A program made the translations under genes and the position numbers. Below, one piece after another: positions 4,087 to 24,268 of a stretch of DNA of 64,000 nt; the stretch's first letter is position 1; each line of letters starts with the position of its first letter. Origin of the DNA: Bradyrhizobium sp. CER78 (GTDB taxonomy: Bacteria; Pseudomonadota; Alphaproteobacteria; Rhizobiales; Xanthobacteraceae); contig NZ_JARVWP010000004.1 in the NCBI RefSeq assembly GCF_029846235.1, forward strand, positions 1 to 64,000, written 5' to 3'. The notes under the pieces were generated by a model, which saw only the letters and a program-made list of their open reading frames with translations, was not told the DNA's origin and did no database searches.

Positions 4087-4329
4087 TCAACGTGTAACGC
4101 CGCGGGCGCGGCTTCTTGCGATCAACGACCTGACCAGCCATTCGAGCCCGATCGCCACGGCCATAATGGCCAGGGCCGTCAGCACGATCGGCTGGGCGAT
4201 ATTCCGTGCCAGCTGTTCGCCGGCGAAGAACGCGGAGTGCAGCAAATCGAACCCGACCGGATTGCACACCAGCACGGCCGACAGCAGCAGCGAAATCCAG
4301 GGCCAGCGCGTGCGGGCCAAGCCGGCCAC
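4087..4329 (-). CDS. Small membrane protein of unknown function in the pdh operon (80 aa)
   Basis: A GTG start lies immediately after the TGA of the preceding small gene (TGA at 4332-4330, GTG at 4329-4327), which implies translational coupling. The protein has a hydrophobic segment at about residues 10-28 (WISLLLSAVLVCNPVGFDLL) and a second at about 45-65 (IVLTALAIMAVAIGLEWLV), then a basic tail RSRARGVTR, so two membrane spans are likely. It lies between pdhC and lpdA with 17 bases to lpdA. I do not recognise a family. The coupling and hydrophobic pattern argue for a real gene, and its position suggests a link to the PDH complex or simply shared expression. Confidence 0.65.
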   Translation of the reverse strand: MAGLARTRWPWISLLLSAVLVCNPVGFDLLHSAFFAGEQLARNIAQPIVLTALAIMAVAIGLEWLVRSLIARSRARGVTR

Positions 4330-4506
4330 TCATCGGTACTCCTGCCATACCGCACCGAGAAATATGGTCCACACCAGCGCCAGCACACCGGCGCCGATCA
4401 TCATCAACCGGAACTGGAACGTCGATATCAGGTCGCGGTTGACCGCGACGAGCAGCGCAACGGCTATGGCGGCGAGCAGAACGTACGGACCTGACATCGC
4501 GTACAT
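4330..4506 (-). CDS. Small membrane protein of unknown function in the pdh operon (58 aa)
   Basis: This reading frame translates as MYAMSGPYVLLAAIAVALLV onward and ends in IFLGAVWQEYR, with two hydrophobic spans at about residues 8-21 and 36-52. Two in-frame ATGs are possible (4506 and 4497) and neither has a strong Shine-Dalgarno sequence. Its stop abuts the start of the 80-residue membrane protein, and its first ATG lies 12 bases after the pdhC stop, so it fits tightly in the operon. No known domain is recognised. The two short genes may act as a pair. The alternative, a non-coding spacer, is less likely given the exact packing and membrane-like composition. Confidence 0.6.
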   Translation of the reverse strand: MYAMSGPYVLLAAIAVALLVAVNRDLISTFQFRLMMIGAGVLALVWTIFLGAVWQEYR

Positions 4507-4518
4507 GGCGGATGCCCG

Positions 4519-5877
4519 TCACACCATCATCATCACGGGATTTTCGATCAGCTGCTTGAAGGCGCCGATCAGCTCGGCGCCGAGCGCGCCGTCGATGGCG
4601 CGGTGATCGCACGACAGGGTCACGCTCATGACGTTCGCGATCTCGATCTTGCCGCCGCGCACGACGGGGCGCTCCTCCGAGGTGCCGACCGCGAGGATCG
4701 AGGCGTGCGGCGGATTGATCACGGCGGTGAAGTGGTTGATGCCGTACATGCCGAGGTTGGAGACCGCGGTGGTGCCGCCCTGGTATTCTTCCGGCTTCAG
4801 CTTACGGGCGCGGGCGCGCGCGGCAAAATCCTTCATCTCGTTCGAGATGGTCGAGAGCGTCTTGGTCTCGGCCTTGCGGATGATCGGCGTGATCAGGCCG
4901 CCCGGCATCGCCACCGCGACGCCGACGTCGGAATGCTTGTGCTTGAGCATGCCGCCTTCGGTCCAGCTGACGTTGCAGTTCGGAATCTTCTGCAGCGCGA
5001 CCGCCATCGCCTTGATGACGAAGTCGTTGACCGAGATCTTGTAGAGCGGCTTCTTCTCCTTGTCCTTCGGCGCGGCGGCGTTGATCTCTTCGCGCGCGGC
5101 GAGCAGCTTGCCGATGTCGCAGTCGATGGTGAGATAGAAGTGCGGGACGTTCTGCACCGAGGCGGTGAGACGCTGCGCGATGGTGCGGCGCATGCCGTCA
5201 TGCGGCACGACTTCATACGAGCCTGGCTCGAACAGCGCCAGGATCTGCTTGTCCGACATCGACGGCGCGATGCTCGGCCCCGCGGCGGCGGGCGCCGCCG
5301 CCGGCGCCTTCAGGCCCTTGCCGGACTTGGCGTCGTCGACATCGCGCGCGATGACGCGGCCGTGCGGTCCGGTGCCGGTGATGCGGGAAAGATCGATGCC
5401 GGCTTCCTTTGCCAACCGGCGCGCCAGGGGCGAAGAAAAGACGCGGGCGTGGCCGTTGGCTTGCGCGGCGGGTGCCGCAGCAGGCTGCGGCGCCGGCGCT
5501 GCGGCCGGTGCCGGCGCAGCCACTGGTGCGGGAGCCGCGGCAGGCGCGGCCTGCGCGGCGGGCTTCGGGGCTTCGGCGGGCTTGGCGGCCGGAGCAGTGC
5601 CGGCTCCGGCGCTGGCTGCCGCCTTCACATCCTCGCCGTCGCCGGCCATGACCGCGATGACGTCGTTGACCGGCACGTCCTGCGTGCCCTCCGGCACCAG
5701 GATCTTGGCGATCGTGCCCTCGTCGACCGCCTCGACTTCCATCGTCGCCTTGTCGGTCTCGATCTCCGCGATCACGTCGCCGGACTTGACCTTGTCGCCC
5801 TCTTTCTTGAGCCACTTGGCGAGATTGCCCTTTTCCATCGTCGGCGACAGCGCGGGCATGAGAATATTGATCGGCAT
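4519..5877 (-). CDS. pdhC: Dihydrolipoamide acetyltransferase (E2 of pyruvate dehydrogenase)
   Basis: The 452-residue protein moves the acetyl group from E1 to CoA. It has one N-terminal lipoyl domain ([18 protein letters not shown], lipoylated Lys43 in [10 protein letters not shown]), an Ala/Pro-rich linker at about residues 85-145, a peripheral-subunit-binding domain ([16 protein letters not shown]), and a C-terminal acyltransferase domain ending with the catalytic [10 protein letters not shown] motif. An upstream in-frame extension was rejected because the lipoyl domain starts at this ATG, which follows the DUF5076 stop by two bases. A single lipoyl domain on E2 together with one on E1-beta is the usual alphaproteobacterial arrangement. 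Confidence 0.97.
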
Positions 5878-5879
5878 TG

Positions 5880-6185
5880 TCAGTGACCTTGTTGCGACCG
5901 CGGTTTGGTTTGGCCCATGTCGGTCGGCCGGGCGATTTCGGCTTCGAACATCTCGACGATGCGCGCGAGCGCCTCGTCCTCGGTGTATTCGCTCTCGCGC
6001 GAATAGGCGCGCGCGGCGTGGCGGGCGATGTCGACGAGCATCAGCCCCCACATGTCCGGCTCCTCGAAGGCGCGCTGGAACGCGATCGACAGGCCGCCGT
6101 CGACGACAAAGGCGCGCAGCACCTCGACGGCGTCGTCGCGGCCTATCACGTCAGGCGGCAGCGGCTGCTCCTTGGGACCGGCCAT
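5880..6185 (-). CDS. DUF5076 family protein
   Basis: The 101-residue soluble protein matches the DUF5076 pattern, with [26 protein letters not shown] in its middle (residues about 38-63) and a conserved acidic helix [16 protein letters not shown]. Members of this family are typically found between pdhB and pdhC in Rhizobiales, exactly as here: its start follows the pdhB stop by five bases, and its own stop is two bases before pdhC. The molecular role is not known. Constant placement inside the operon suggests an accessory function for the PDH complex. There is no signal peptide or membrane span. Confidence 0.85.
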
Positions 6186-6190
6186 CGGCG

Positions 6191-7588
6191 TTACCGGTAG
6201 GACACGGCCTTGGCGGCCGCGACCACCTCGGCGACGGAAGGCAGAGCAAGCTTTTCGAGATTGGCGGCATAGGGCATCGGCACATCCTTGCCGGAGACGC
6301 GCGCGACCGGCGCATCGAGATAGTCGAACGCATGCTCCATGATGCGCGCGGCGACCTCGGAGCCGACGCCGCTCTGCTGCCAGCCCTCCTCCACCGTGAC
6401 CGCACGGCCGGTCTTCTTCACCGAGTTGATGATGGTCTCCGTGTCCATCGGACGGATGGTGCGCAGGTCGATCACCTCGGCGTCGATGCCCTCCTTGGCG
6501 AGCTCGTCCGCGGCCTTCAGCGCATACGACATGCCCATCGCCCAGGACACGAGGGTGACGTCCTTGCCGGCGCGCGCAATCCGCGCCTTGCCGATCGGCA
6601 CAATGAAATCGGCGAGCTTTGGCACCTCGCCGGTGTGGCCGTACAGCACCTCGTTCTCGAGGAAGATCACCGGATTGGGATCGCGGATCGCGGCCTTGAG
6701 CAGGCCCTTGTAGTCGGCGGCCGAATACGGCGCGATCACCTTGAGGCCCGGAATCTGCGAGTACCAGGCGGCGTAGTCCTGGCTGTGTTGGGCGGCGACG
6801 CGCGCAGCGGCGCCGTTCGGGCCGCGGAACACGATCGAGCAGCCCATCTGGCCGCCAGACATATAGAGCGTCTTGGCGGCGGAGTTGATGATCTGGTCGA
6901 TCGCCTGCATCGCGAAATTCCAGGTCATGAACTCGACGATCGGCTTCAGCCCGGCCATCGCCGCGCCGACGCCGACGCCGGCAAAACCGTGCTCGGTGAT
7001 CGGCGTGTCGATCACGCGCCGCGCACCGAATTCCTGCAACAGGCCCTGCGTCACCTTGTAGGCGCCCTGATACTCGGCGACCTCCTCGCCCATGATGAAG
7101 ACGTCGCCGTCGCGGCGCATCTCCTCGGCCATCGCATCGCGCAGCGCCTCGCGGATGGTCTGCGTGACCATCTCGGTGCCCGCGGGAATTTCCGGATCGG
7201 GCAGCGCCTCGCTGACCGGCGCGGCCGGCGCCTTTGCTGCCGGCTGCGGCGCTTCCGCCTTGGCTTCGGCAGCAGGCGCAGCCTCCGCCGCCTTCGGCTG
7301 CGGCGCTGGTGCCGCAGGCACCTTGGCGAGGTCGGCGGCGCTTTCGCCGTCCGCCAGAATCGTGGCGATCGGCGTGTTCACCGCGACATCGGCGGTGCCT
7401 TCCGGAATCAGGATCTTGCCGAGCGTGCCCTCGTCGGTTGCCTCGACCTCCATCGTCGCCTTGTCGGTCTCGATCTCGGCGATCACGTCACCGGACTTGA
7501 TGGTCTCGCCTTCCTTTTTCAGCCATTTGGCGAGGTTGCCCTTCTCCATGGTGGGCGACAGCGCAGGCATCAGCACTTGAATGGGCAT
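6191..7588 (-). CDS. pdhB: Pyruvate dehydrogenase E1 component, beta subunit, with lipoyl domain
   Basis: The 465-residue protein combines an N-terminal lipoyl domain ([18 protein letters not shown], Lys43 in [10 protein letters not shown]), an Ala/Pro linker at about residues 85-130, and the E1-beta transketolase pyrimidine and C-terminal domains ([40 protein letters not shown]). With PdhA it decarboxylates pyruvate using thiamine diphosphate. The start is placed at the lipoyl domain and a longer in-frame extension is ignored. The first 50 residues are almost the same as those of PdhC, consistent with domain duplication within the operon. Confidence 0.97.
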
Positions 7589-7634
7589 ATCGGCTCCCGA
7601 AATCGATCTTGAAATTCGTCTGCGCGGGGTGGGG

Positions 7635-8654
7635 TCAGCGGTAGATGTCGGTGTAGAGCTCGGATGCATCCGGCTCCGGATCGTGCTGCGCGAAGTCGGC
7701 GGCTTCGTTGACGATCTCGCGCACCTCGGCGTCGATCGCCTTCAGATCCTGCTCGCTGACGCCCGACGCCAGCAAGCGGTTGCGCACCTGCTCGATCGGG
7801 TCCTGGTCGTGACGAACCTTCTCGACTTCCTCGCGCGTGCGGTACTTCGCGGGATCGGACATCGAGTGGCCGCGATAGCGGTAGGTCTGCATCTCGAGGA
7901 TCATCGGACCATTGCCGCCGCGGCACCATGCTGTGGCCTCATCGGCGGCGGCCTTGACCGCGCGCACGTCCATGCCGTCGACCTGCCTGCCGGGAATGTT
8001 GAAGGAGGCGCCGCGCTTGGAGAAATCCTGCTGCGCCGAAGCGCGCGACACCGAGGTGCCCATCGCGTAGCGATTGTTCTCGATGACGTAAATCACCGGC
8101 AGCTTCCACAGCTCAGCCATGTTGAAGCTCTCGTAGACCTGGCCCTGGTTGGCCGCGCCGTCGCCGAAATAGGTCACGCTGACGTTATCGTTGCCGCGAT
8201 AGCGGTTGGCGAAGGCAAGGCCGGTGCCGAGCGACACCTGCGCGCCCACGATTCCGTGACCGCCGTAGAAATGCTTCTCCTTGCTGAACATGTGCATGGA
8301 GCCGCCCTTGCCGCGGGAATAGCCGCCGCGGCGTCCGGTCAATTCGGCCATCACGCCCTTAGCTTCCATGTCGCAGGCCAGCATGTGGCCGTGGTCGCGG
8401 TAGCCCGTTATGACCTCGTCGCCCTGCTTCAGCGCCATCTGCATGCCAACCACAACGGCTTCCTGGCCAATATAGAGATGGCAGAAGCCGCCGATCGCAC
8501 CCATGCCGTAGAGCTGACCGGCCTTCTCCTCGAAGCGCCGGATCAGGAGCATGTCCCGCAGTGCCTTGAACTCCTGCTCCTTGGAGAATTCGGGGGGAGA
8601 ACCAGCCTTCTCTTGCCCTGATTCTTTTGCGACGGTTTTCTTGGGTGCGGCCAT
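7635..8654 (-). CDS. pdhA: Pyruvate dehydrogenase E1 component, alpha subunit
   Basis: The 339-residue protein carries the thiamine diphosphate and magnesium motif [17 protein letters not shown] and the regulatory-loop region [15 protein letters not shown] typical of E1-alpha. A short Lys/Glu-rich N-terminal extension precedes the core ([20 protein letters not shown]). It heads the PDH operon, with 46 bases to pdhB. The 159-base gap to ftsB holds its promoter. The phosphorylatable serines of mitochondrial homologues fall in the same loop, but there is no evidence of kinase control here. Confidence 0.97.
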
Positions 8655-8813
8655 GGCAATTCCGGGTGAGAGAAGTCGGAGAACCCTCTCTAACCCAACT
8701 CAAATCACCTTGGAAGGATTGCGTTCGCTCGATGGAATTTTGCTATGCCGCACTGCAGCGCGGCGCGACACTTTTGTGATAGCACGCGATTATTTTTGAA
8801 ATTTGAGAACGCG

Positions 8814-9131
8814 TCAGTTCGACTTGTTGATCCGGACCAGATCACGCGGGTTGGCGTAGTCGAGCTGGAAGCGCGCGCGCTCGTCCAGCATGTCGGGATC
8901 GACCCGGTCCGACCGCAACAGCGACACCCGCTGCTCGCCCTCGGCGCGTTCCTTCTTCAGCCGCGCGAGCTCCGAGGTCAGCGCGATGATTTCCTGGTCG
9001 AGCTCCTGCCGCGCGTTCAGGCCGTATTTGCCGGTATAGGCGTTGACGCCGAAATAGCCGACCATCAGCGCCGCCAGCGTGTAGAGCGCGAGCCCGGTCA
9101 GAATCGATTTGAGGCGCGTACGGGAAACCAT
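8814..9131 (-). CDS. ftsB: FtsB/DivIC-type septum formation initiator
   Basis: The 105-residue protein has one N-terminal membrane span (about residues 10-30, LTGLALYTLAALMVGYFGV) followed by a coiled coil (about 38-75, LDQEIIALTSELARLKKERAEG) and a short C-terminal region with the family-typical DPDMLDERAR segment. It is expected to act in the inner membrane at the division site with FtsL and FtsQ. Its position between eno and pdhA is the normal rhizobial place for this gene. The start codon lies in the stem of a perfect 10-bp hairpin and no Shine-Dalgarno sequence is seen. Confidence 0.85.
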   Translation of the reverse strand: MVSRTRLKSILTGLALYTLAALMVGYFGVNAYTGKYGLNARQELDQEIIALTSELARLKKERAEGEQRVSLLRSDRVDPDMLDERARFQLDYANPRDLVRINKSN

Positions 9132-9152
9132 GGCCGCGAAGATGCGGCCATG
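9127..9152 (-). promoter_or_regulatory. Hairpin covering the ftsB start codon
   Basis: CCATGGCCGC (9127-9136) pairs perfectly with GCGGCCATGG (9143-9152) around a six-base loop. The ATG at 9131-9129 is inside the stem, so the start would be hidden if the transcript begins upstream. Whether it forms in vivo is not known. Confidence 0.4.
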
Positions 9153-9154
9153 GG

Positions 9155-9169
9155 GTTAACGGAGTGCTA
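9155..9169. promoter_or_regulatory. Possible CtrA half-matching box upstream of ftsB
   Basis: TTAA-CGGAGTG-CTAA differs by one base from the alphaproteobacterial CtrA consensus TTAA-N7-TTAA and sits 24-38 bases upstream of a division gene. It is a single imperfect match and could be chance. Confidence 0.25.
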
Positions 9170-9173
9170 AACC

Positions 9174-9223
9174 AAAGCGTTTTCGAGCGAAGTGGATGCC
9201 GGTTCGCGTGAAGAAAACGCGTC
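9174..9223. repeat. Short palindromic repeat (GCGTTTT ... GAAAACGC)
   Basis: GCGTTTT at about 9176-9182 is inverted in GAAAACGC at about 9213-9220, with gcgaagtggatgccggttcg between. The same kind of element (gaagtggaaaccggttt) recurs near 11178 and 13873 and is a common Bradyrhizobium intergenic motif. It lies between the FMN reductase stop and ftsB. Confidence 0.4.
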
Positions 9224-9230
9224 AACAAGG

Positions 9231-9782
9231 TCAGCCGTTCTGCTTTTCGATAAAGGCCGCGAAGGCGCCGAGATACTGCTGCAGCACGCCCTTGAGCGAC
9301 TCCTTGGTCAGTTCGCCCTTGTCGTCGAAGGCATCGCCGACACCGTTGAGATAGGCTTCCGGCTGGCCGAGGATCGGACCGGAAATGCCCGGCAGGATGT
9401 TCTGCAGATGCTTCACCGCGCTGACGCCGCCGAGCGGTCCCGGCGAATTGCCGATGATGCCGATCGGCTTGCCGATAAACGAGCTCTTGCCGTAGGGCCG
9501 CGAGGCGACGTCGATCGCGTTCTTCAGCACGCCCGGAATCGAGCGGTTGTATTCGGGGGTCACGAACAGCACGCCGTTCGACTTCTGCAACTTCTCGCGG
9601 AAGGCCAGCCAGTCCGCCGGCGGGGCGGCCTCGAGGTCCTGGTTGAAGAAGGAAATGCCTTCGAGGGTCGTCACGTCGAGCTTCAGCGATGCCGGTGCGA
9701 GCTTGGCCAGCGCATTGGCAATCTTGAGCGAGAAGCTCTGTTTGCGGATGCTGCCGACGATGGTGACGATGTTATAGGCCAT
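9231..9782 (-). CDS. NADPH-dependent FMN reductase family protein
   Basis: The 183-residue flavodoxin-like protein starts with the FMN phosphate-binding loop TIVGSIRKQSFS and has the family signature PEYNRSIPGVLKNAIDVASR. Members reduce FMN, quinones, azo dyes or chromate in the cytosol with NAD(P)H. The start at 9782 is chosen because GAGGGAA stands just upstream, and a 14-residue extension has no support. It is transcribed away from the ddl gene, with 277 bases of shared upstream DNA, and it is not in a clear operon. Confidence 0.9.
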   Translation of the reverse strand: MAYNIVTIVGSIRKQSFSLKIANALAKLAPASLKLDVTTLEGISFFNQDLEAAPPADWLAFREKLQKSNGVLFVTPEYNRSIPGVLKNAIDVASRPYGKSSFIGKPIGIIGNSPGPLGGVSAVKHLQNILPGISGPILGQPEAYLNGVGDAFDDKGELTKESLKGVLQQYLGAFAAFIEKQNG

Positions 9783-10059
9783 AGCAATTTCCCTCGGGTT
9801 GTGCGTGAAGCTCGCGCACTTCACCTACCGGCGCTCCGAGAAAGATGCAAGTGCATGGATCGTTCAATTCCGGAAACCCAGTGTTCACGAAATTTGACCG
9901 AACGGCCATGAGGCTCTGCCCCCAAAGCGTTGGCGCCTCCGGATCGGCCACCGGCCGCTCCGCCCGAAAACCGCGTCGGGCGAGCGCTCGGGGCCAATTG
10001 TCGACACGTTCCTCCAAACATACTGTTGCCGGATTCGACCGCCGACCGAAGAGCGGACA

Positions 10060-11175
10060 ATGGCAGAGCGCAAGAGACGGATTGCAATCCTGTTCGGCGG
10101 ACGATCGGCCGAACATGACGTGTCGCGGGCGTCGGCGGCGAACGTGCTTCGCTCGCTCGACCCGGATCGCTATGAGGCCACGGCGATCGGCATCACCCGG
10201 GATGGCCGCTGGATCGTTGCCGATGCCGGCAACGGCGCCGGCGCGGGTGGCGGCGCGCTGACCATTCCGGACCATGGGCCGCAACTCGCGCTGCTGCCGG
10301 GCGGACAGGGCCGCGTCGTGGTGCTTCCGGGACCTGAGGCAGTGCCGGCGGAATTGCCGGCATTCGATGTCGTCTTCCCGGTCCTGCATGGCCCCAATGG
10401 CGAGGATGGCACGGTGCAGGGTGCGCTGGAGTTGTCCGACGTGGCCTATGTCGGCTCGCGCGTGATGGGCTCGGCGGCCGGAATGGACAAGGACATCGCC
10501 AAGCGCCTGCTGCGCGAGGCGGGATTGCCGATCGTCCCCTTTGTCGTGATGTCGGTCGCCGCCCCGGTCAGCTACGACGACGCGGTCAGCGCCCTCAGCT
10601 CGCAGGAGCTGTTCGTCAAGCCGGCCAACATGGGATCATCGGTCGGCGTGTCGAAGGCGCGCAACGCGGCGGAATTCGAGGCCGGCTGCAAACTGGCGTT
10701 CCGCTTCGACACCAAGATCCTGATCGAGCGCTGCATCGCGCCGATCCGGGAGGTCGAGTGCTCCGTGCTCGAGGATGCCGAGGGCCGCGTGCGTGCCTCG
10801 CAGCTCGGCGAGATCGTGCCGTCCGACAAGCACGGCTTCTACTCCTACGACGCGAAGTATCTCGATGCGGATGGTGCCCTGCTTCAGGTGCCCGCCGACG
10901 TCCCGCCCGCCGTGGCAGATCGCATCAGGGAGCTCGCGATCAAGACGTTCGGCGTGCTGGGTTGCGAAGGCATGGCGCGCATCGACTTCTTCCTGCACGG
11001 CGAGCAGGCGTTCGTGAACGAGGCGAACACCCTGCCCGGCTTCACCAACATCAGCATGTATCCGCGGCTGTGGGAGGCCAGCGGCCTGCCGCAATCCGAG
11101 CTGATGGACGTCCTGATCGGCCATGCCCTGGAGCGTCACAAACGCTCCAGGGCACTGGCATTCGAGCGCGACTAG
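10060..11175 (+). CDS. ddl: D-alanine-D-alanine ligase
   Basis: The 371-residue ATP-grasp enzyme joins two D-alanines for peptidoglycan. It has the N-terminal FGGRSAEHDVSRASA loop, the central KPANMGSSVGVSKA and EVECSVLED motifs, and the C-terminal metal and product-binding NEANTLPGFTNISMYP signature. The length is close to DdlA-type ligases (about 360) and longer than the DdlB enzyme usually found in the mur cluster, which is not here, so this may be a second ligase. The gene stands alone, followed by a strong hairpin. Substrate preference (D-Ala against D-Lac or D-Ser) was not determined. Confidence 0.93.
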   Translation: MAERKRRIAILFGGRSAEHDVSRASAANVLRSLDPDRYEATAIGITRDGRWIVADAGNGAGAGGGALTIPDHGPQLALLPGGQGRVVVLPGPEAVPAELPAFDVVFPVLHGPNGEDGTVQGALELSDVAYVGSRVMGSAAGMDKDIAKRLLREAGLPIVPFVVMSVAAPVSYDDAVSALSSQELFVKPANMGSSVGVSKARNAAEFEAGCKLAFRFDTKILIERCIAPIREVECSVLEDAEGRVRASQLGEIVPSDKHGFYSYDAKYLDADGALLQVPADVPPAVADRIRELAIKTFGVLGCEGMARIDFFLHGEQAFVNEANTLPGFTNISMYPRLWEASGLPQSELMDVLIGHALERHKRSRALAFERD

Positions 11176-11177
11176 CA

Positions 11178-11221
11178 GGATCCGGAAAAGTGCGAAGCGG
11201 TTTTCCGGAAGGATCATGCTC
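11178..11221. repeat. Short palindromic repeat (GGATCCGGAAAAGTG type)
   Basis: The sequence ggatccggaaaagtgcgaag is followed by cggttttccggaaggatcat, giving complementary ATCCGGAAAA / TTTTCCGGA arms. A related copy is at 13873-13909 (gaaaaccggtttccactttt then ccggatcatgct). It lies directly after ddl. Confidence 0.6.
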
Positions 11222-11233
11222 AAACAAGAATCC

Positions 11234-11272
11234 AAAGCGCGATGACGATTCAACCTAATCTCATCGCGCTTT
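11234..11272. terminator. Hairpin between convergent ddl and dehydrogenase genes
   Basis: AAAGCGCGATGA (11234-11245) pairs with TCATCGCGCTTT (11261-11272), a perfect 12-bp stem with a 15-base loop. It lies between two convergent genes, so it can stop both transcripts. There is no long T-run. Confidence 0.65.
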
Positions 11273-11285
11273 AACCTCCGCTCGG

Positions 11286-12425
11286 TTACGCGCCCTTGTT
11301 CGGATTGATCAGGAATTTCTCGCCGGTCGCGCGCTTGCCGTAGACGGCGATGTTGTCGAGCTGCAGGGTTTCCTGCAACGACACCACCTTGGTGTAGTGA
11401 CTGGCGAAGGTGGTCTTCAACTCGGCAACCACCCGCTGGCGCAGCTTGTTGCCCGCCTCCGGACCGATCTTCATCAGGAACGGGAACAAGAGCCAGCCGC
11501 CGACGCCCCAGGCCATGCCGAAGCCGCGCGGCAACTCGATCGAGCGGGTGTCGAGGCTGCCGTAGACATAGACCTGCTTGTGCACATTCGAGCCGTAGCG
11601 GCTGTAAGCCTTGGCGGTCTTGTTGATCGCAGTCTCCATCGCGACCAGGATCTGGCCCGCGAGCTTGCCGCCGCCGATCGCATCGAAGGCGATGGTCGCG
11701 CCGGTCTCGACCAGTGCGCCGGTGAGCTTGTCCATGAAGTCGGGCGCGCTGGAATCGACGATATGCTTGGCGCCGATCTTGTGCAGGATGTCGGCCTGCT
11801 CCTTGTTGCGCACGATGTTGACGAGGCCGATGCCGTCCTTGAGGCAGATCCTGTTCAGCATCTGACCGAGGTTCGACGCCGCCGCCGTGTGCACCAGCGC
11901 CTTGTGGCCCTCGCGACGCATCGTCTCGGTCATGCCGAGCGCGGTCAGCGGATTGACGAAGCAGGACGCGCCTTCCGCGGGCGTGGTGCCTTCGGGCAGC
12001 GGCAGGCATTCGTTGACACGCAGCGTGCGGTATTGCGCATACATCGCACCACCGATCATCGCGACGGTCTTGCCCATCAGCGCTTTCGCCGCGTCCGACG
12101 AGCCGGTCCGGATCACGACGCCGGCGCCTTCATTGCCGACCGGCATCGACTCGTCGAGCCGGGCGGCAAGGCCCGGCAACGCCGCTTCCGGCACGCGCGC
12201 AGTCACCACGGGCAATTCCTTGCTGCCGGAGACCTTGGCGGCCGACATGTCGGCCGGGCCGATTAAAAGCCCAAGGTCGGACGGATTGATCGGGGTCGCC
12301 TCGACCCGGACCACGACCTCGTCGGGACCGGGCTCGGGGGTCGGGACATTGACCAACGACAATTCCAGTTCGCCATCCTTCTTGAGCAGCGAACGTAGTT
12401 GCAGACCGTTCTTGCCGTCACTCAT
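11286..12425 (-). CDS. Zinc-type alcohol dehydrogenase-like oxidoreductase (MDR superfamily)
   Basis: The 379-residue protein is a medium-chain dehydrogenase/reductase with an N-terminal GroES-like domain (EATPINPSDLGLLIGP) and a C-terminal Rossmann domain. The zinc-binding Cys/His set of true alcohol dehydrogenases is not evident, so a quinone oxidoreductase or enoyl-CoA-reductase-like NADPH enzyme is more likely. The start at 12425 follows GGGGAGG; an earlier in-frame extension reads through spacer DNA beyond it. It lies 47 bases downstream of eno on the same strand and may be co-transcribed with it. The substrate is unknown. Confidence 0.82.
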   Translation of the reverse strand: MSDGKNGLQLRSLLKKDGELELSLVNVPTPEPGPDEVVVRVEATPINPSDLGLLIGPADMSAAKVSGSKELPVVTARVPEAALPGLAARLDESMPVGNEGAGVVIRTGSSDAAKALMGKTVAMIGGAMYAQYRTLRVNECLPLPEGTTPAEGASCFVNPLTALGMTETMRREGHKALVHTAAASNLGQMLNRICLKDGIGLVNIVRNKEQADILHKIGAKHIVDSSAPDFMDKLTGALVETGATIAFDAIGGGKLAGQILVAMETAINKTAKAYSRYGSNVHKQVYVYGSLDTRSIELPRGFGMAWGVGGWLLFPFLMKIGPEAGNKLRQRVVAELKTTFASHYTKVVSLQETLQLDNIAVYGKRATGEKFLINPNKGA

Positions 12426-14943: not shown

Positions 14944-15169
14944 GTCGCGCGAAGCCAATTCGTGCGACACTGCGGCTTATTCTTGAAAGTTGTGAGGCAG
15001 GGTTCCGCGCTGCCGTTTGCAGCATCGCTAAAGCGATTGAGCGACAACGCGGATTCCCAACGTGCGAAATGTTCCGCAAGCGCAGAAAAATTTGCGCGGC
15101 CAATCGTCACATACGCGTCGTCCGTCAGGTGTCTCTTCCGCTCCTCATCTCACCCCAGGGAGCATCGAA

Positions 15170-18100
15170 ATGGCTACGATCAGCGGAATGAAAACCTTCG
15201 CGTCGGGCGCGGCGGTTGGCGCAACGGCTCCGGACTCCGTTACGACTGCGAACGGGACGATCTTCGTCGAATACGGCAATGGTGCAGACTCGACCGGCGC
15301 CGGCGGCTCAAGCACGATCGTGCAGTACGACAAGAACGGCAAGGTCGAACACACCTACACGATCGCCGGATCGGTCGATGGCTTGAAGTACAATCCGTTC
15401 ACCGGCGAGATCTGGGCGCTTCAGAATCAGGACGGAAACTCCACACTTACCCTGATCGATCCCCTCACCCACAAGGTGACGGGCCCGCTGAGCTTTGCCG
15501 ATCCATCCGCGACGCGCGGCTATGACGACGTCGTCTTCAAGGGCGACAAGGTGTTCCTGAGCTACACCAATCCGAACGGAGCCGGCGATCCGACGCTCGT
15601 CGAACTGCTCAATGGCGATCATCCAAGTGGAACATTGTTGACGGCGACGATCCTGACCGATGGCGCCACCGGCTTCAACACGGTCACGGGCGCCACCGAA
15701 GTTGTCCCGCAGTCCGATCCGGATTCGCTCAAGCTCGCGCCCGACGGCGATCTGATCTTCACTGACGGCGCCGACGGCACCATCATCGACGTTCAGCATC
15801 CCGGGACGGCCAGCCAGGCGATCGCGTTCACGACGATCAAGGGCATTCCAGCCGGCTCCGTCGGCAATGCCGGCCTCGACGACGTGATCAAGCCCGGCGC
15901 TACTGCCGGCACGTTCTATATGACCGACACGAAGACCGGGAACGTCTATTCGTTCCACGCGAGCGGCCTCAACACCAACGACTATTACGCGTCGGTTGCG
16001 AGCCTCGGCGGGTTCGGCCAGGTCGATCCGACCACCGGCGTCTTCACGCCGCTGGTCACGGGAGCGAACTTTTCCGCCGCGCACGGCCTGATCTTCGTTC
16101 CGGACAAGAACGCGTCCCCGATGGCGCATGTGGATTCAATCACGACATTTGCCGCTCCGCCGAATGGGGTGACCGGACTGGATTCGATCACCATCGCGAA
16201 CAAGTACGTGTTCGTGGAGTACGGCAATGGCGTCGACTCGACCGGCGCCGTGCCGGGCGACAGCACGATCATCCAGTACGACCGCGCGGGACACTTCGTG
16301 CACGCTTATTCGATCGAGGGATCGGTCGACGGGCTGAAGTACAATCCCGAGACCGGAATGGTCTGGGCATTGCAGAACCAGGACGGCCGCTCATCACTGT
16401 CGCTGATCGATCCCAACACGCAAACGGTCACCGCGCATTTCGACTATGCCAACCCGTCGACCTCGCGCGGCTATGACGACGTGGTGTTCAAGGGCAACGA
16501 AGTATTCCTCAGCTATACGAACCCGACCGGCAACGGTGATCCCACCATCGTGAAGCTCCTGAACGGCCCGAACCCGAAAGCTGGCGACCTGCTCACCACC
16601 GCTCCCGTGTTGCTCGACGGCGCCGTGGGTTACGATACCGTCACCGGCAAGATGGAGGTGGTGCCGCAGGCCGACCCGGACTCGCTGAAGCTTGCCGCGA
16701 ACGGCGATCTAATCTTCTCCAGCGGCGATGACGGCGCGATCATCGACGTCCAGAATCCGGGCACTTCCCACCAGGCGATCGCGTTCACTCCGATCCAGGG
16801 AATTCCTGCCGGATCAGGCGCCGGCCTCGACGACGTCATCAAGCCATCCGCGACGTCGGGCACCTTCTACATTTCGGACGCAAAGGACGGCCATGTCCTG
16901 GCGGTGTATGCGAGCGGCCTCAATCCCAACGACTACTATGCCTCGGTGGGTTCGCTCGGGGCGTTCGGCCAGGTCGACGAGAACACCGGCACCTTCACCG
17001 CGCTGGTGTCCAGCGAGAATGCACCCGGCTTCAGCTTCGGCTCGCCGCACGGCGTTGCCTTCGTTCCCGACAAGAATGCGACGCCATTTCCCGAGATCAG
17101 TGCGGTCAAGACCTTCCAGGCCCCACCCGACGGGGCGACCCAGCCCGATTCCGTCACCACTGCACACGGCTCGACCTTTGTCGAATACGGCAATGGCGCC
17201 GATTCGACCGGCGCCGGAGGCTCCAGCACCATCGTGCAATACGACAAGCACGGCGACGTGGAATTCACATACTCGATCACGGGATCGGTCGATGGCCTGA
17301 AATACAACCCAACGACCGGCGATATCTGGGCACTCCAGAATCAGGACGGCAATCCCACCCTGACGTTGATCAATCCGGAGACGCATGCGGTCTCCGCGCC
17401 GCTCAGCTATGCCGATTCGAGTGCGAGCCGCGGCTTTGACGACGTGGTGTTCAAGGGCGACAAGGTGTTCCTGAGCGAGACCAACCCCGTCAATCCCGGC
17501 GATGCAACCGTGGTCCAGCTCCTCAACGGCGATCATCCGTCTGGCACGTTGACGACCAAGCCCATTCTTGAATTTGGCGCTACCGGTCTGGACACCGTGA
17601 CCGGCAAGACCGAGGTCGTGCCTCAGAACGATCCGGACTCGTTGAAGCTCGCCCCGAACGGCGACCTGTTGCTGTCGAGCGGCGACGACGGGACCATCAT
17701 CGATATCAAGAATCCCGGCACGACCCACCAATCGGTGTCGTTTACGCCGATTGCGGGCGTCGGCGCCAAGGCTGGTCTCGACGATGTCATTGAAACAGGT
17801 GCCAAGTCGGGCACGTTCACATTGACCGATACGGCCACCGACAAGGTCTTCTCGTTTCACGCGACTGGCCTGAACCCCGACGATTACTACGCCTCGGTCG
17901 GCAGCCTGAAGGCGTTCGGCCAGGTCGACCCGACCACCGGCGCATTCACGCCGCTGCTGTCGGCCGACAATGCGCCCGGCTTCGACTTCAGCTCTCCGCA
18001 CGGCGTCAGCTTCACGCCCGACCCTTCTCCCGCGGCCGGTCATGTCGCGACATCGGTGCACGCCGATAGCTTCGTGTTTGCCGATGGCGGCAACAACGCC

Positions 18101-18265
18101 GGCGCCGCAGCCGGCACTCCCCAGCCGTTCTCATTTGAAGGCCCTTCACATGCAGAACAGCTTGCGCAACTTGCTTCCGACGTCTCGCATAGCAGTTCGG
18201 ATTGGCTGCACGAGACTACGATGCAGTACGTGGCGATGGGGCACGATGCCTTCCATCTGACCTAG
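15170..18265 (+). CDS. Large exported protein of three tandem ~320-residue repeats
   Basis: The 1031-residue protein consists of three homologous units starting near residues 3, 320 and 641 (DNA about 15176, 16130 and 17093). Each opens like MKTFASGAAVGATAPDSVTT, then FVEYGNGADSTGAGGSST and SVDGLKYNPTTGDIWALQNQ, and closes with LDDVI, GTFY.TD, NDYYASVGSLGAFGQVD and SPHGV.F.PD. The pattern resembles NHL- or SMP30-like beta-propellers, so each unit may be one propeller. There is no N-terminal signal peptide. The C-terminal 65 residues (ADSFVFADGGNNAG to MGHDAFHLT) resemble type I secretion tails of Bradyrhizobium proteins. AGGGAG before ATG 15170 sets the start. No secretion genes are adjacent. 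The ligand or enzyme activity is unknown. Confidence 0.85.
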   Translation: MATISGMKTFASGAAVGATAPDSVTTANGTIFVEYGNGADSTGAGGSSTIVQYDKNGKVEHTYTIAGSVDGLKYNPFTGEIWALQNQDGNSTLTLIDPLTHKVTGPLSFADPSATRGYDDVVFKGDKVFLSYTNPNGAGDPTLVELLNGDHPSGTLLTATILTDGATGFNTVTGATEVVPQSDPDSLKLAPDGDLIFTDGADGTIIDVQHPGTASQAIAFTTIKGIPAGSVGNAGLDDVIKPGATAGTFYMTDTKTGNVYSFHASGLNTNDYYASVASLGGFGQVDPTTGVFTPLVTGANFSAAHGLIFVPDKNASPMAHVDSITTFAAPPNGVTGLDSITIANKYVFVEYGNGVDSTGAVPGDSTIIQYDRAGHFVHAYSIEGSVDGLKYNPETGMVWALQNQDGRSSLSLIDPNTQTVTAHFDYANPSTSRGYDDVVFKGNEVFLSYTNPTGNGDPTIVKLLNGPNPKAGDLLTTAPVLLDGAVGYDTVTGKMEVVPQADPDSLKLAANGDLIFSSGDDGAIIDVQNPGTSHQAIAFTPIQGIPAGSGAGLDDVIKPSATSGTFYISDAKDGHVLAVYASGLNPNDYYASVGSLGAFGQVDENTGTFTALVSSENAPGFSFGSPHGVAFVPDKNATPFPEISAVKTFQAPPDGATQPDSVTTAHGSTFVEYGNGADSTGAGGSSTIVQYDKHGDVEFTYSITGSVDGLKYNPTTGDIWALQNQDGNPTLTLINPETHAVSAPLSYADSSASRGFDDVVFKGDKVFLSETNPVNPGDATVVQLLNGDHPSGTLTTKPILEFGATGLDTVTGKTEVVPQNDPDSLKLAPNGDLLLSSGDDGTIIDIKNPGTTHQSVSFTPIAGVGAKAGLDDVIETGAKSGTFTLTDTATDKVFSFHATGLNPDDYYASVGSLKAFGQVDPTTGAFTPLLSADNAPGFDFSSPHGVSFTPDPSPAAGHVATSVHADSFVFADGGNNAGAAAGTPQPFSFEGPSHAEQLAQLASDVSHSSSDWLHETTMQYVAMGHDAFHLT

Positions 18266-20420: not shown

Positions 20421-20558
20421 GCAGTCCTGTGCGGGGTGGATCAAGCCATCCCGCGCGATGAGGGGGTTGCGCTGACGCCGTGGGTGCGCCGTGCTATCAC
20501 AATCCTGCCCTATCCGCCCCTATAGATTGGCGCGGAACAGATTCCCATGAGGAACGAC

Positions 20559-20885
20559 ATGCGCCTTTTGCTTGTGATCGTTGCTGCGGCCGCCTTGCCG
20601 GGCCTTGCCTACGGCCAGGCCAGCAGCCAGCCCGGGGTCGTCACCAGCGGCGCCAACGGCGTCACCGTCAATGGCAAGCCGGCGGCGCGTAGCGGCGACA
20701 CCACCAGCAATGGCGGCCCGCTCGTCGAAGGCGTGCCCAATGTCCTGATCAACGGCAAGCCGGCGGTGGTCATGGGCGATCGCACGCATTGCGGCGGCAA
20801 GACGACCTCCGGCAGCCACGGCGTCTTCATCAACGGCAAGCCGATGGTGACCCAAGGCGATCAGACCTCGGGCTGCCCGCAATAG
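20559..20885 (+). CDS. Exported PAAR-like domain protein
   Basis: The 108-residue protein has a Sec signal peptide (MRLLLVIVAAAALPGLAYG, cleavage after GQA) followed by a PAAR-like fold: three repeats of the shape NGKPA-x-GD (VNGKPAARSGDTT, INGKPAVVMGDRTHCGG, INGKPMVTQGDQT). PAAR proteins normally cap type VI secretion spikes from the cytosol and have no signal peptide. This one is directed to the periplasm and no T6SS genes are near. Cys and His in DRTHCGG and the final GCPQ could bind a metal as in PAAR tips. The start at 20559 follows GAGGA by five bases; an ATG at 20547 is possible. Confidence 0.75.
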   Translation: MRLLLVIVAAAALPGLAYGQASSQPGVVTSGANGVTVNGKPAARSGDTTSNGGPLVEGVPNVLINGKPAVVMGDRTHCGGKTTSGSHGVFINGKPMVTQGDQTSGCPQ

Positions 20886-21374: not shown

Positions 21375-21391
21375 GCAATGTTGTTGCAATG
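21375..21391 (+). promoter_or_regulatory. Direct-repeat element GCAATG-N5-GCAATG upstream of response regulator
   Basis: GCAATG at 21375-21380 and 21386-21391 are in direct repeat with an 11-bp period, the typical layout of OmpR-family binding sites. The element lies 45 bases upstream of the regulator's start codon. A nearly identical element is at 23515-23531. Confidence 0.5.
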
Positions 21392-21436
21392 TCACTTGCC
21401 TTAAAACCGGCTGTTCGGGATCTGGACCAAGAGGAC

Positions 21437-22111
21437 ATGCGGATACTGCTGGTGGAAGATGAGGCGGAGATGGCGGCGGCGCTGGCGCAGGCGCTGAAGG
21501 GCTACGACATGGTGGTCGACCATGTGCCGAGCCTCGCCGAGGCCGAGGAGGCGATTTCCGCCGACGTCCATGGCGCGGTGCTGCTCGACCGCCAGCTTCC
21601 CGACGGCGACGGCCTCACGTTGATCCCGAAGCTGCGCGCCAAGGCCGACGGCGTTCCAATCATCGTGCTGACGGCGCGCGGCGACCTCGCCGACCGCATC
21701 ATTGGGCTCGACAGCGGCGCCGACGACTATCTGGCCAAGCCGTTCGCGGTCGAGGAGCTGCTGGCGCGGCTGCGCGCCGTGCTGCGCCGTCCCGCCGGCC
21801 TGCAGCTCGAGATCATCAAGGCCGGCCGCATGGCGTTCGATTGCAGCCATCGCGAGGCCAGCGTCGATGGCCGCCCGCTCGACCTGCCGCGGCGTGAGCT
21901 TCTGGTGCTGGAGACGCTGCTGCGCCGCCTCGGCCGCACCGTGTTGCGCGCGACGCTCGAGGAGGCCGTGTACAATTTCGAGGACGAGATCCAGTCGAAC
22001 GCGCTCGACGCCCATGTGTCGCGGCTGCGGCGCAAGCTCGCCGATACCGACGCCGGCGTCGAGATCCACAGCATCCGCGGCGTCGGCTACCTGCTCAAGC
22101 AGGTGTCATGA
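21437..22111 (+). CDS. OmpR-family response regulator
   Basis: The 224-residue protein has an N-terminal receiver domain (acidic pair in LLVEDEAEM, phosphorylated Asp51 in LLDRQLPDGDG, Thr79, Lys101 in YLAKPF) and a C-terminal winged helix (DLPRRELLVLETLLRR to NALDAHVSRLRRKL). The start at 21437 is set by the receiver opening MRILLVEDEA and a purine-rich AAGAGG just upstream; a 50-residue extension is rejected. Its stop overlaps the histidine kinase start by four bases (ATGA), so the two are translationally coupled. It resembles TctD/QseB-type regulators. The signal is unknown. Confidence 0.93.
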   Translation: MRILLVEDEAEMAAALAQALKGYDMVVDHVPSLAEAEEAISADVHGAVLLDRQLPDGDGLTLIPKLRAKADGVPIIVLTARGDLADRIIGLDSGADDYLAKPFAVEELLARLRAVLRRPAGLQLEIIKAGRMAFDCSHREASVDGRPLDLPRRELLVLETLLRRLGRTVLRATLEEAVYNFEDEIQSNALDAHVSRLRRKLADTDAGVEIHSIRGVGYLLKQVS

Positions 22112-23478
22112 GCGAACCCGCCGACCACTATTGCCTGCGCTCGCAACTGAGCTGGCGACTGGTCGGGCTGCAAGCGCTGCTGCTTGCCATGCTGATCGTT
22201 TGCCTGATCAGCGCATTGTGCGTCACCGGTTTCCTGATCGTCCCGCGCGATGAGGATCACGTCATCTCCATCGTGCAGAACGCGATCGCACGCGATGGGA
22301 AAGGCGACCTTATTTTGCGCTCGACGGCCGAACTCAAGCAGCTTCGCGACAACACGCCCGACCTCTGGTTCCTGGTGCGCGACCGGCAAGGCCATTCGCT
22401 GTCGGAAGGCGCAGTGCCGTCCGAATTTGCACGAATCGGTGATGCACTCGACCAGATCAGCCAGGCCAGGCTCGGCTGGCAGATGTTCGAGGACGATCCC
22501 CGCAAGCCGCCGGCGCGGCTGAAGCGCGTCAATTCCGACGCCGGCCCGGTGCAGGTGCTCACGGCCACGCAAGGGCCGACATCGAGCGTCAAGACAGCCC
22601 TCGCCACGACGCTGGCGTTCCTGGCCGTTGCCCTGCCCGGCCTGCTGCTGATGGCGTGCGCCACCTTCATCGCAACGCCGATGGTGGTGAAGCGCGCTTT
22701 CGCCGGCCTCGACACCGCGGCCGATCAGGCGCGCCGGATCGACTTCCGCCAGCGCGGCAGCCGGCTGTCGGCCGACCACCTGCCGCTCGAGGTCGCGCCG
22801 CTGGTGACCGCCGTCAACGATGCGCTGACGCGGCTCGACGACGGCTATTCGCGCCACCAGCGCTTCGTCGCGGATGCCGCGCACGAATTGCGCACCCCGA
22901 TCGCGATCCTCAACACGCGGCTGGAGTCGCTGCCGTCGGGGCCAGAGAAAACCCGCCTGCTCGAGGACTCTGCGCGGCTTGCAACGCTCGCCGAGCAGCT
23001 GCTCGACATCCAGCGCTTCGACCAGTGCCGCAACCCCTTCGGCCGCATCGATCTCGTCGCGGTCGCGCGCAATGTCGCCGCCGATCTCGCGCCGCTCGCG
23101 ATCGCGGGCGGTTACGAATTGTCGCTCGATAGCGCCGCCGACCGCGTCGAAACGCTGGGCGACCGCGCCGCGCTGGAGCGCGCACTGACCAATCTCGTAC
23201 AGAACGCCATCCAGCATGGCGGCCGCCGCGGCACCATCACCATCCATGTCGGCAACGCCGCGACGGTCGACGTGACCGACGAAGGCGACGGCATTCCGAA
23301 GCATGAGCGCACGCGGATCTTCGATCCGTTTTATCGGCTCGCGCCGCTCGACCGCGGCGCCGGCCTTGGTCTGAACATGGTGCGCGAGATCGCAAGGCTG
23401 CATGGCGGTCACGTCTCCGTGCTCGACGGACCGAAGGGCGGCGCATGCTTCCGTCTTACACTACCGCCTGCGCCCTAG
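22108..23478 (+). CDS. Membrane sensor histidine kinase
   Basis: The 456-residue kinase has a first membrane span at about residues 18-42, a periplasmic loop of about 115 residues, a second span at about 165-190 (LALPGLLLM-type region), a HAMP-like linker, the H-box DAAHELRTPIAIL with phosphorylated His259, and an ATP-binding domain with N box NLVQNAIQHGG, G1 DEGDGIPKHE and G2 GAGLGLNMVREIARLHGG. It pairs with the overlapping upstream regulator, which it would phosphorylate. The periplasmic loop has no domain I recognise, so the stimulus is open. The next gene downstream encodes a phospholipid-methyltransferase-like enzyme. Confidence 0.93.
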   Translation: MSEPADHYCLRSQLSWRLVGLQALLLAMLIVCLISALCVTGFLIVPRDEDHVISIVQNAIARDGKGDLILRSTAELKQLRDNTPDLWFLVRDRQGHSLSEGAVPSEFARIGDALDQISQARLGWQMFEDDPRKPPARLKRVNSDAGPVQVLTATQGPTSSVKTALATTLAFLAVALPGLLLMACATFIATPMVVKRAFAGLDTAADQARRIDFRQRGSRLSADHLPLEVAPLVTAVNDALTRLDDGYSRHQRFVADAAHELRTPIAILNTRLESLPSGPEKTRLLEDSARLATLAEQLLDIQRFDQCRNPFGRIDLVAVARNVAADLAPLAIAGGYELSLDSAADRVETLGDRAALERALTNLVQNAIQHGGRRGTITIHVGNAATVDVTDEGDGIPKHERTRIFDPFYRLAPLDRGAGLGLNMVREIARLHGGHVSVLDGPKGGACFRLTLPPAP

Positions 23479-23514
23479 GCATCGTGATGCCAGAGCGCTT
23501 TCCAGCAACATCGC

Positions 23515-23531
23515 GCAATGTTCTCGCAATG
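23515..23531 (+). promoter_or_regulatory. Direct-repeat element GCAATG-N5-GCAATG upstream of methyltransferase
   Basis: The sequence GCAATGTTCTCGCAATG matches the element at 21375-21391 (GCAATGTTGTTGCAATG) at 15 of 17 positions. It lies 37 bases after the kinase stop and 71 bases before the methyltransferase start, a suitable place for a binding site of the neighbouring OmpR-type regulator. Confidence 0.5.
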
Positions 23532-23602
23532 CAGCCCGCGCAAAGAGGAGATCGCGCCGCGCGATCGAGTCGCGACGCGACGACACTTTGCTGGGAATCC
23601 CA

Positions 23603-24268
23603 ATGGCACATGATCTCCTTTCTTTCTTCACGGCGTGGATGGCTGCCCCCGGCCGCGTCGGGGCCATCGCGCCTTCGGGCGCAGCGCTCGCCGAACTGAT
23701 CACCCGCGACATCGGCGCCAACACCGGCCCGGTGCTGGAGCTCGGCCCAGGAACGGGCGCCTTCACCTATCAGCTGTTGAAGCGCGGCGTGCGCCAGCAG
23801 GATCTCACGCTGATCGAATACGGCTCGGATTTCATGCGGCTGTTGCAGCTGCGCTTTCCCGGCGCGCGCGTGCTGTGGATGGACGCCGCGCGGCTGGCCT
23901 CGGAACGGCTGTATGACGGCGCGCCGGTCGGCGCCGTGGTCAGCGGACTGCCGCTGCTCAACATGTCGCCGCGCAAGGTCATCTCGATCGTCGGCGGCGC
24001 ATTCAGCTACATGCGTCCCGGCGGCGCGTTCTATCAATTCACCTATGGGATGCGCTGCCCGATACGGCGGCCGATCCTCGACCGGCTCGGCCTGCGCGCC
24101 ACGTTGGTCGATCGCGCCATCCTCAACGTGCCGCCCGCCGCGGTCTACCGGCTGACGCGGCGACCGCAGTACAAGCTGTTGACGCGTGACGTTACACCGG
24201 CGGCCGGCACCAACGTTTCACCGATCAAGAAGGAACGCCAGGCGAGCGAGGACTGCGCCGCCGTGTGA
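23603..24268 (+). CDS. Class I SAM methyltransferase, phospholipid N-methyltransferase-like
   Basis: The 221-residue protein has the opening MAHDLLSFFTAWMAAPGRVG and a SAM-binding motif I VLELGPGTGAFTYQLL. It also has the later region VVSGLPLLNMSPRKV and PGGAFYQFTYGMRCP, typical of the rhizobial/Rhodobacter PmtA group, which methylates phosphatidylethanolamine towards phosphatidylcholine. There is no membrane span, and such enzymes act at the inner-membrane surface. Bradyrhizobium is known to carry several Pmt paralogues, so this may be one of the PmtX type rather than the main PmtA. Its Ala-rich linker-like C-terminal tail is not conserved. It follows a two-component system with a shared promoter element. 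Confidence 0.78.
   Translation: MAHDLLSFFTAWMAAPGRVGAIAPSGAALAELITRDIGANTGPVLELGPGTGAFTYQLLKRGVRQQDLTLIEYGSDFMRLLQLRFPGARVLWMDAARLASERLYDGAPVGAVVSGLPLLNMSPRKVISIVGGAFSYMRPGGAFYQFTYGMRCPIRRPILDRLGLRATLVDRAILNVPPAAVYRLTRRPQYKLLTRDVTPAAGTNVSPIKKERQASEDCAAV

Follow-up and report, generated by a model that had tools for sequence, protein, structure and literature searches.

Does a two-component system in Bradyrhizobium sp. CER78 control both its own genes and the phospholipid N-methyltransferase (Pmt) gene beside it? The question arises from a locus within the first 64,000 nucleotides of contig NZ_JARVWP010000004.1 (assembly GCF_029846235.1, forward strand; this whole stretch is called the window below), where a direct repeat of GCAATG precedes both the genes for a response regulator (RR1) and sensor kinase (HK1) and the gene for the methyltransferase. 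Comparison of the locus among genomes established the site, its strict conservation and its linkage to this system. We consider it likely that the locus is a self-regulating two-component module, in which RR1 activates the rr-hk operon and the adjacent phosphatidylethanolamine (PE) methyltransferase gene.

Two GCAATG repeats precede the regulator and methyltransferase genes

Operator 1, GCAATGTTGTTGCAATG, occupies positions 21375 to 21391 of the forward strand and lies 45 bp before the RR1 start (ATG 21437). Operator 2, GCAATGTTCTCGCAATG, occupies positions 23515 to 23531 of the same strand, 71 bp before the methyltransferase start (ATG 23603). Each is a GCAATG-N5-GCAATG direct repeat, its two half-sites spaced at a period of 11 bp, and the two elements are identical at 15 of 17 positions. 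These coordinates, the spacing to the gene starts, the identity and the period had been described in a first-pass annotation of the window and were all reproduced from the sequence; moreover, as had also been claimed there, no further exact match is present in the window. The mechanical list of open reading frames contained longer frames for RR1 (TTG 21287) and for the methyltransferase (ATG 23402) that begin upstream of the operators. The starts at 21437 and 23603 were adopted because relatives align from these, and sequence further upstream diverges.

When up to 2 mismatches were allowed, 8 matches were observed in the window versus 7.8 expected; the loose motif is therefore noise, and only the exact copies, two in number, are informative. 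Across the whole genome (7.97 Mb, both strands), GCAATG-N5-GCAATG occurs exactly 3 times, twice at these promoters and once at C23:149790, a site that is intergenic by codon score and lies about 275 bp before a gene that we take to be rimO-like. The reversed control pattern gave 0 exact matches in the same genome, and in 60 genomes of the genus the exact pattern gave 160 matches versus 15 for the control. Genome-wide scatter, which would have spoken against a promoter element, was checked as well: all 3 exact copies lie outside genes, which for the window pair holds given the chosen start codons. At one mismatch or better, the genome contains 47 matches, including the 3 exact ones, versus 9 for the reversed control, a difference not used as evidence for one-mismatch sites because the dinucleotides of the two patterns differ. 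A codon score, whose training set was just 8 window genes, placed only 14 of the 45 such sites outside the window between genes; the loose motif is therefore useless for regulon prediction. One recurrent exact match, GCAATGCGCGCGCAATG, lies within a coding sequence (presumably cysE-like) and was treated as coincidence.

Both sites are conserved and follow the linked system

Related methyltransferases were found at 80 loci, 74 of which have the regulator, kinase and methyltransferase genes on one strand. A check for conservation upstream of orthologues found the site kept: with up to one mismatch allowed, 70 of these 74 loci carry it at both promoters, and in 50 of the 74 it is exact at both. 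When the set was enlarged by four loci (some of the genomes behind them may duplicate others in the set), both sites were present at this threshold in 73 of 78, the exceptions being L100, L107, L113, L114 and L187; taken singly, operator 1 was present in 76 of the 78 linked loci and operator 2 in 74. L100 has 2 mismatches at the regulator site. In sets dereplicated at 80% flank identity (n = 48 and 45), the majority base accounts on average for 98% at the 12 half-site positions, 85-88% in the spacer and 51-52% in the flanks, and the best flank window of the same layout reached 65%. Both sets were preselected for a site with at most 2 mismatches, so that the 98% figure is conditional on this step; the 70 of 74 figure is free of it. 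That the half-sites are near-invariant while the flanks diverge argues for strong selection on the repeat itself.

The site also follows the gene arrangement. Among the 60 genus genomes, 24 have a methyltransferase 75-100% identical to that of the window directly next to a kinase that matches HK1 at 69-100% identity, and a single methyltransferase of this grade, G053:C144, has no adjacent kinase. Among related methyltransferases without a linked regulator and kinase, a rightly oriented site was found in 1 of 13 and was missing from the other 12 (Fisher test for linked versus unlinked genes, p 7e-11, shared ancestry ignored). The sole unlinked gene with a site (L127) belongs to a genome, G018, that retains the linked system elsewhere, which hints at regulation in trans. 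Omitted from this count were L184 (the same gene as L106), L111/L185 and L094 (at contig edges, with a site), L192 (at a contig edge, with a partial kinase and 3 mismatches) and L120 (a Pmt of the 41%-identity type described below, without a site); L124 was scored as lacking a site and has a reversed one-mismatch site far upstream.

Two decaying modules were observed. In L188 (G073:C101) the kinase and methyltransferase genes are both broken and both sites persist. In L107 (4791-6549) the site is present at 4791 and an insertion splits the methyltransferase gene.

The regulator, the kinase and the promoter layout

RR1 (21437 to 22111, forward strand) is a complete OmpR-family response regulator of 224 amino acids, with a receiver domain (PF00072, E 1.9e-25) and a C-terminal winged helix (Trans_reg_C, PF00486, E 5.6e-19). 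Its top NCBIfam models are PmrA and TctD, and it scores far under both cut-offs; at 184.1 bits against a curated cut-off of 330, it falls outside the PmrA equivalog NF007928. HK1 (22108 to 23478, forward strand) is a complete sensor histidine kinase of 456 amino acids, laid out as a membrane helix, a periplasmic PDC/PAS-like domain, a second helix, HisKA and HATPase_c; PF00512 and PF02518 are both above cut-off, and the H-box FVADAAHELRTP is present in the translation. The two frames overlap by 4 bases, which suggests a single operon. A direct repeat with a period of about 11 bp at the target promoters is the operator type of the OmpR/PhoB family, and both sites are very probably bound by the linked regulator, as judged from this layout and its conservation.

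The sensor half of HK1 was modelled as a PDC/PAS-like domain of middling quality (mean predicted local distance difference test score, pLDDT, 66.7). A Foldseek search with this model gave no match at E≤0.001. With VIA, PhoQ sensor domains ranked top (3bq8, Z 8.9, root-mean-square deviation 3.5, 105 residues aligned), little above the usual background. The model is consistent with an envelope or periplasmic signal as the input of HK1, and no specific ligand is claimed.

A putative -10-like element, TAAAAC (21402 to 21407, forward strand; consensus TAGAA), starts 10 bp after operator 1, as judged from columns +11 to +15 in 48 dereplicated relatives. After operator 2, column counts in 45 dereplicated relatives point to a weak -10-like element, CAAAGA (23541 to 23546, forward strand), with the pattern xAxAxT and an invariant A at +11. 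At both promoters, the -10-like hexamers begin about 9-10 bp 3' of the site, and the repeat occupies the -35 position. The pho box bound by PhoB has a class II layout, in which a head-to-tail repeat replaces the -35 element and the -10 element lies about 10 bp downstream. This resemblance makes activation the likelier mode.

The methyltransferase is probably the orthologue of PmtX4

The methyltransferase gene (23603 to 24268, forward strand) encodes a Sinorhizobium-type phospholipid N-methyltransferase of 221 amino acids and 24.0 kDa. Its best NCBIfam model is PLipidMtase_Agro (NF045881, PmtA) at 92.8 bits, followed by OlsG at 43.4; the cut-off of the PmtA equivalog is 250 bits, and the enzyme therefore falls outside it. 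The other Pmt of the genome, 41% identical to the window enzyme and of a type (34-43% identical) present in 60 of 60 genus genomes, is also under this cut-off (157.3 bits), which suggests that the cut-off is narrow and that failing it tells little about substrate. A solved methyltransferase structure, PDB 9ko3, aligns to residues 16-186 of the window enzyme (E 7.6e-20), and the nearest relatives are in Bradyrhizobium, e.g. B. tropiciagri SEMIA 6148, with 99% methyltransferase identity.

According to the available text of PMC8590670, PmtX3 and PmtX4, the remaining Sinorhizobium-type enzymes of B. diazoefficiens, methylate PE in Escherichia coli; expression of PmtX4 there yielded 65% monomethyl-PE (MMPE) and 15% dimethyl-PE (DMPE), and the sizes given are ∼25 kDa for PmtX4 and ∼21 kDa for PmtX3. 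The accessions are BAC50069 for PmtX4 and BAC45946 for PmtA (PMC11409717, available text). At 24.0 kDa, the window enzyme is closer in mass to PmtX4 than to PmtX3. We take PmtA to be at blr0681; the accession offset would then tentatively put PmtX4 at number 4804, presumably in the region of pyrG. The window methyltransferase adjoins a gene that we take to encode CTP synthase. A literature search for locus tags of the PmtX4 region found no paper. Accession numbering, mass and genus-wide gene content combined indicate that the window methyltransferase is probably the PmtX4 orthologue, and by analogy it would make MMPE and DMPE from PE.

Paralogous and distant systems carry the same box

The same genome contains a divergent second module on contig 36, with a methyltransferase (MT2, 192 amino acids, 65% identical), regulator (RR2, 64%) and kinase (HK2, 51%). 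Upstream of RR2 lies GCAAGGTTGCCGCAATG, and a site with one mismatch precedes the regulator in 8 of 8 such divergent loci. A third regulator, RR3 (42% identical to RR1), faces a MipA/OmpV-type gene (MipA by Pfam in one genome). RR3 was detected at E≤1e-60 in 14 of 60 genus genomes and was not found in the window's own genome at this threshold. In all 14, the motif is present at no more than one mismatch, as GCAATGTTSGGGCAATG or a near version, and in 11 it is exact. A private operator for RR1 was rejected, because the recurrent GCAATGTTSGGGCAATG sits in the RR3 promoter region. The recognition helices of RR1, RR2 and RR3 are similar, and with the motif at all three, the box marks a regulator subfamily. 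Binding by these regulators thereby becomes more credible, and exclusivity of the motif less so; the first-pass annotation had implied that the motif belongs to this promoter pair, and that implication falls with the boxes at RR2, RR3 and more distant regulator promoters.

Some features of these paralogous loci were observed in passing. The second module (L119, G000:C36:8000-26000, 5725-11497) continues 3' of MT2 with genes for a DedA-type (VTT) protein, a calcineurin-like LpxH/PlcP-like phosphoesterase with weak LpxH similarity and a glycosyltransferase, and may be a lipid-remodelling unit. In L163 (∼4115-8153) and L193-L206, RR3-HK3 forms a separate system that faces the MipA/OmpV-type gene and has a conserved GCAATG repeat of its own. 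An RR2-type box, GCAAGG-N5-GCAATG, is found at 1001-1017 of L237 (G000:C34:247799), 74 bp before a gene that is presumably porphobilinogen synthase-like.

Across the order, 30 of 297 genomes have an HK1 relative at E≤1e-80. The regions examined represent 34 of the 43 listed matches (the omissions were 4 from the genus, 1 contained within another region and 4 more). A site with at most 2 mismatches on either strand is present upstream of the regulator in 24 of these 34 regions, versus 6% of random 250-bp windows from the same loci, a background that may itself include real sites. In 18 regions the kinase is at least 45% identical; 13 of these have a linked methyltransferase gene, followed in 11 by a DedA-type gene, and five do not (L288, L295, L296, L312 and L313). 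The Pmt-linked divergent loci L289, L290, L291, L292 and L294 carry a box of at most 2 mismatches at both promoters. None of the 16 regions with kinases at 37-43% has a linked methyltransferase, L301, L306 and L307 being cut by contig ends. Other envelope genes are found in some regions: the divergent gene of L299, L302 and L304 encodes an HlyD-type membrane-fusion protein, an AcrB-type pump gene lies upstream in L311, and a patatin-like phospholipase gene lies downstream in L312 (kinase 62% identical). Each of these five has the box, at no more than 2 mismatches, upstream of the regulator.

Other features of the window

Between a gene that we take to be KDO-8-P synthase-like and the regulator, positions 20547-20885 (forward strand) encode a 112-amino-acid PAAR-motif protein that looks secreted, with a signal-peptide-like start (by eye). 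Proteins of this kind are usually found at the tip of type VI secretion spikes. Positions 15062-18265 (forward strand) encode a 1067-amino-acid protein that apparently consists of three tandem blocks of ∼300 amino acids (by eye).

Proposed regulation and its alternatives

We propose that HK1, in the membrane, would sense an envelope or periplasmic signal and phosphorylate RR1. Phosphorylated RR1 would bind GCAATG-N5-GCAATG as a head-to-tail dimer, over the -35 region of two weak promoters, and would activate its own rr-hk operon and the adjacent phospholipid N-methyltransferase gene. The latter would be off without the signal; once it is induced, PE would be turned into mono- and dimethyl-PE beside the PmtA route. 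In this scheme we infer binding by RR1, activation over repression, the lipid product and the signal. With respect to the earlier proposal that the regulator controls itself and the methyltransferase, the comparison supports its core, through a conserved regulator-type site at both promoters, and took away the exclusivity of the box; it also added the likely identity with PmtX4 and the second module of the genome, neither of which had been part of that proposal.

Several observations weigh against this scheme. The window's own methyltransferase gene has a poor -10-like element. Chelatococcus loci L113 and L114 keep the site before the regulator and have none at the methyltransferase promoter. 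In the second module, what precedes MT2 by about 93 bp is no more than a degenerate element with 2 mismatches; of four aligned relatives, two show it with 3 mismatches and two not at all. Among the distant regions, 10 of 34 regulator promoters have no site within 2 mismatches, and only 6 of the 13 linked methyltransferase promoters (L286, L289-L292 and L294) have such a site, at -80 to -172. The site of L284 is doubtful (-30), those of L283 and L285 have 3 mismatches, and the methyltransferase promoters of L282, L287, L293 and L297 have no rightly oriented site. Moreover, the operator is common to paralogous regulators, and cross-regulation is possible. Finally, the evidence for the identity with PmtX4, namely accession arithmetic, mass and gene content, is good but indirect.

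The alternative that survives best, though still unlikely, is that RR1 is a repressor and that the signal releases the methyltransferase gene. A protein bound at the repeat, which overlaps the -35 region, could also block polymerase, and the likely orthologue was reported silent in B. japonicum (PMC3972451). However, the position of the -10-like element about 10 bp past the repeat fits the class II activation of pho boxes, and the weakness of this element at the methyltransferase gene is that of promoters needing help.

Slightly less probable is that a paralogous regulator of the subfamily is the main protein bound at the site, the linked system being not the true or not the sole controller. 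The RR3 boxes speak for it, since they include those of G041 and G016, genomes in which no HK1 was found at E≤1e-60, as do the similar recognition helices. On the other hand, the methyltransferase site tracks physical linkage to RR1/HK1 (74 of 78 linked versus 1 of 13 unlinked genes), and RR3 is confined, at the threshold given above, to a minority of genus genomes that does not include the window's own.

We give a similarly small chance to the enzyme methylating another lipid, such as ornithine lipid, in which case PE methylation would not be tuned. OlsG is indeed the second-best specific model, and the PmtA model is under its cut-off; yet the genome's own Pmt of the 41% type misses that cut-off too, and the available text of PMC8590670 reports PE methylation in E. 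coli by both PmtX3 and PmtX4. That the shared repeat is a coincidence or a generic dispersed element, as the many one-mismatch matches, most of them in genes by codon score, and the recurrent exact match inside a coding sequence might suggest, is ruled out by the rarity of exact matches, their extreme positional conservation and, above all, the fact that 70 of 74 loci have the site at both of their promoters. Activation of both transcription units by RR1 is the reading that we retain.

Relation to known systems and significance

The first-pass annotation knew of no described phospholipid methyltransferase with its own linked two-component system. This claim does not stand, as cinorf10, a PE monomethyltransferase gene inducible by duramycin, is controlled by the linked CinKR pair in the cinnamycin cluster of Streptomyces cinnamoneus (PMC5408092, available text). 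According to the same text, that system likewise places a PE N-methyltransferase under a linked kinase and regulator, with monomethyl-PE formed on induction; unlike the locus described here, it serves lantibiotic immunity in an actinobacterium, with cinnamycin or duramycin as inducer. The likeness is one of gene layout only. PmtX4 itself is alike in being a Sinorhizobium-type enzyme of ∼25 kDa and the probable orthologue of the window enzyme, but no regulator is mentioned for it in the available text of PMC11409717 and PMC8590670. ExoS/ChvI of Sinorhizobium meliloti, a two-component system tied to phosphatidylcholine status, is activated by the absence of phosphatidylcholine; in the available text of PMC8343143 it is not described as the dedicated controller of a linked Pmt.

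Two further likenesses concern the regulator and its site. PmrAB-pmrC (EptA) of gammaproteobacteria is an OmpR-family pair beside a membrane-lipid-modifying enzyme, and PmrA is the best NCBIfam model of RR1; it differs in its target, which modifies lipid A with phosphoethanolamine, and in its half-site, which is of the CTTAAT type. The pho box shares the head-to-tail repeat with an 11-bp period and differs in half-site sequence and regulon. In a literature search, the titles and abstract beginnings of the matches listed contained no report of this Pmt-linked system, subscription journals being mostly uncovered. New here are the setting, a Gram-negative genus known as a phosphatidylcholine producer, the operator, and a candidate explanation of why a Pmt is not expressed.

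That explanation concerns the report that PmtX2-4 are unexpressed under standard conditions in B. japonicum (PMC3972451), since an uninduced dedicated two-component system would account for the silence of PmtX4. A broader reading, which we offer as speculative and on balance doubtful, is that the GCAATG box marks out a regulon for envelope-lipid defence throughout Hyphomicrobiales. In it, sensors resembling PhoQ or PmrB would respond to PE-binding or other membrane-active antimicrobials and switch on PE methylation, accompanied in some modules by DedA-type transporters, an LpxH/PlcP-like phosphoesterase and a glycosyltransferase; sister systems with the same box are linked to genes for RND-type efflux, MipA-type outer-membrane protein and patatin-like phospholipase. 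If true, such a regulon would be the counterpart, in Gram-negative non-producers, of cinnamycin immunity. Should the window enzyme be PmtX4, its silence would be traceable to an untriggered dedicated sensor, a point that is cheaply testable, and the question would shift from the purpose of an extra Pmt to what HK1 senses. The comparison also defines exactly which operator, GCAATG-N5-GCAATG, goes with this regulator subfamily, whose members are repeatedly found next to envelope genes.

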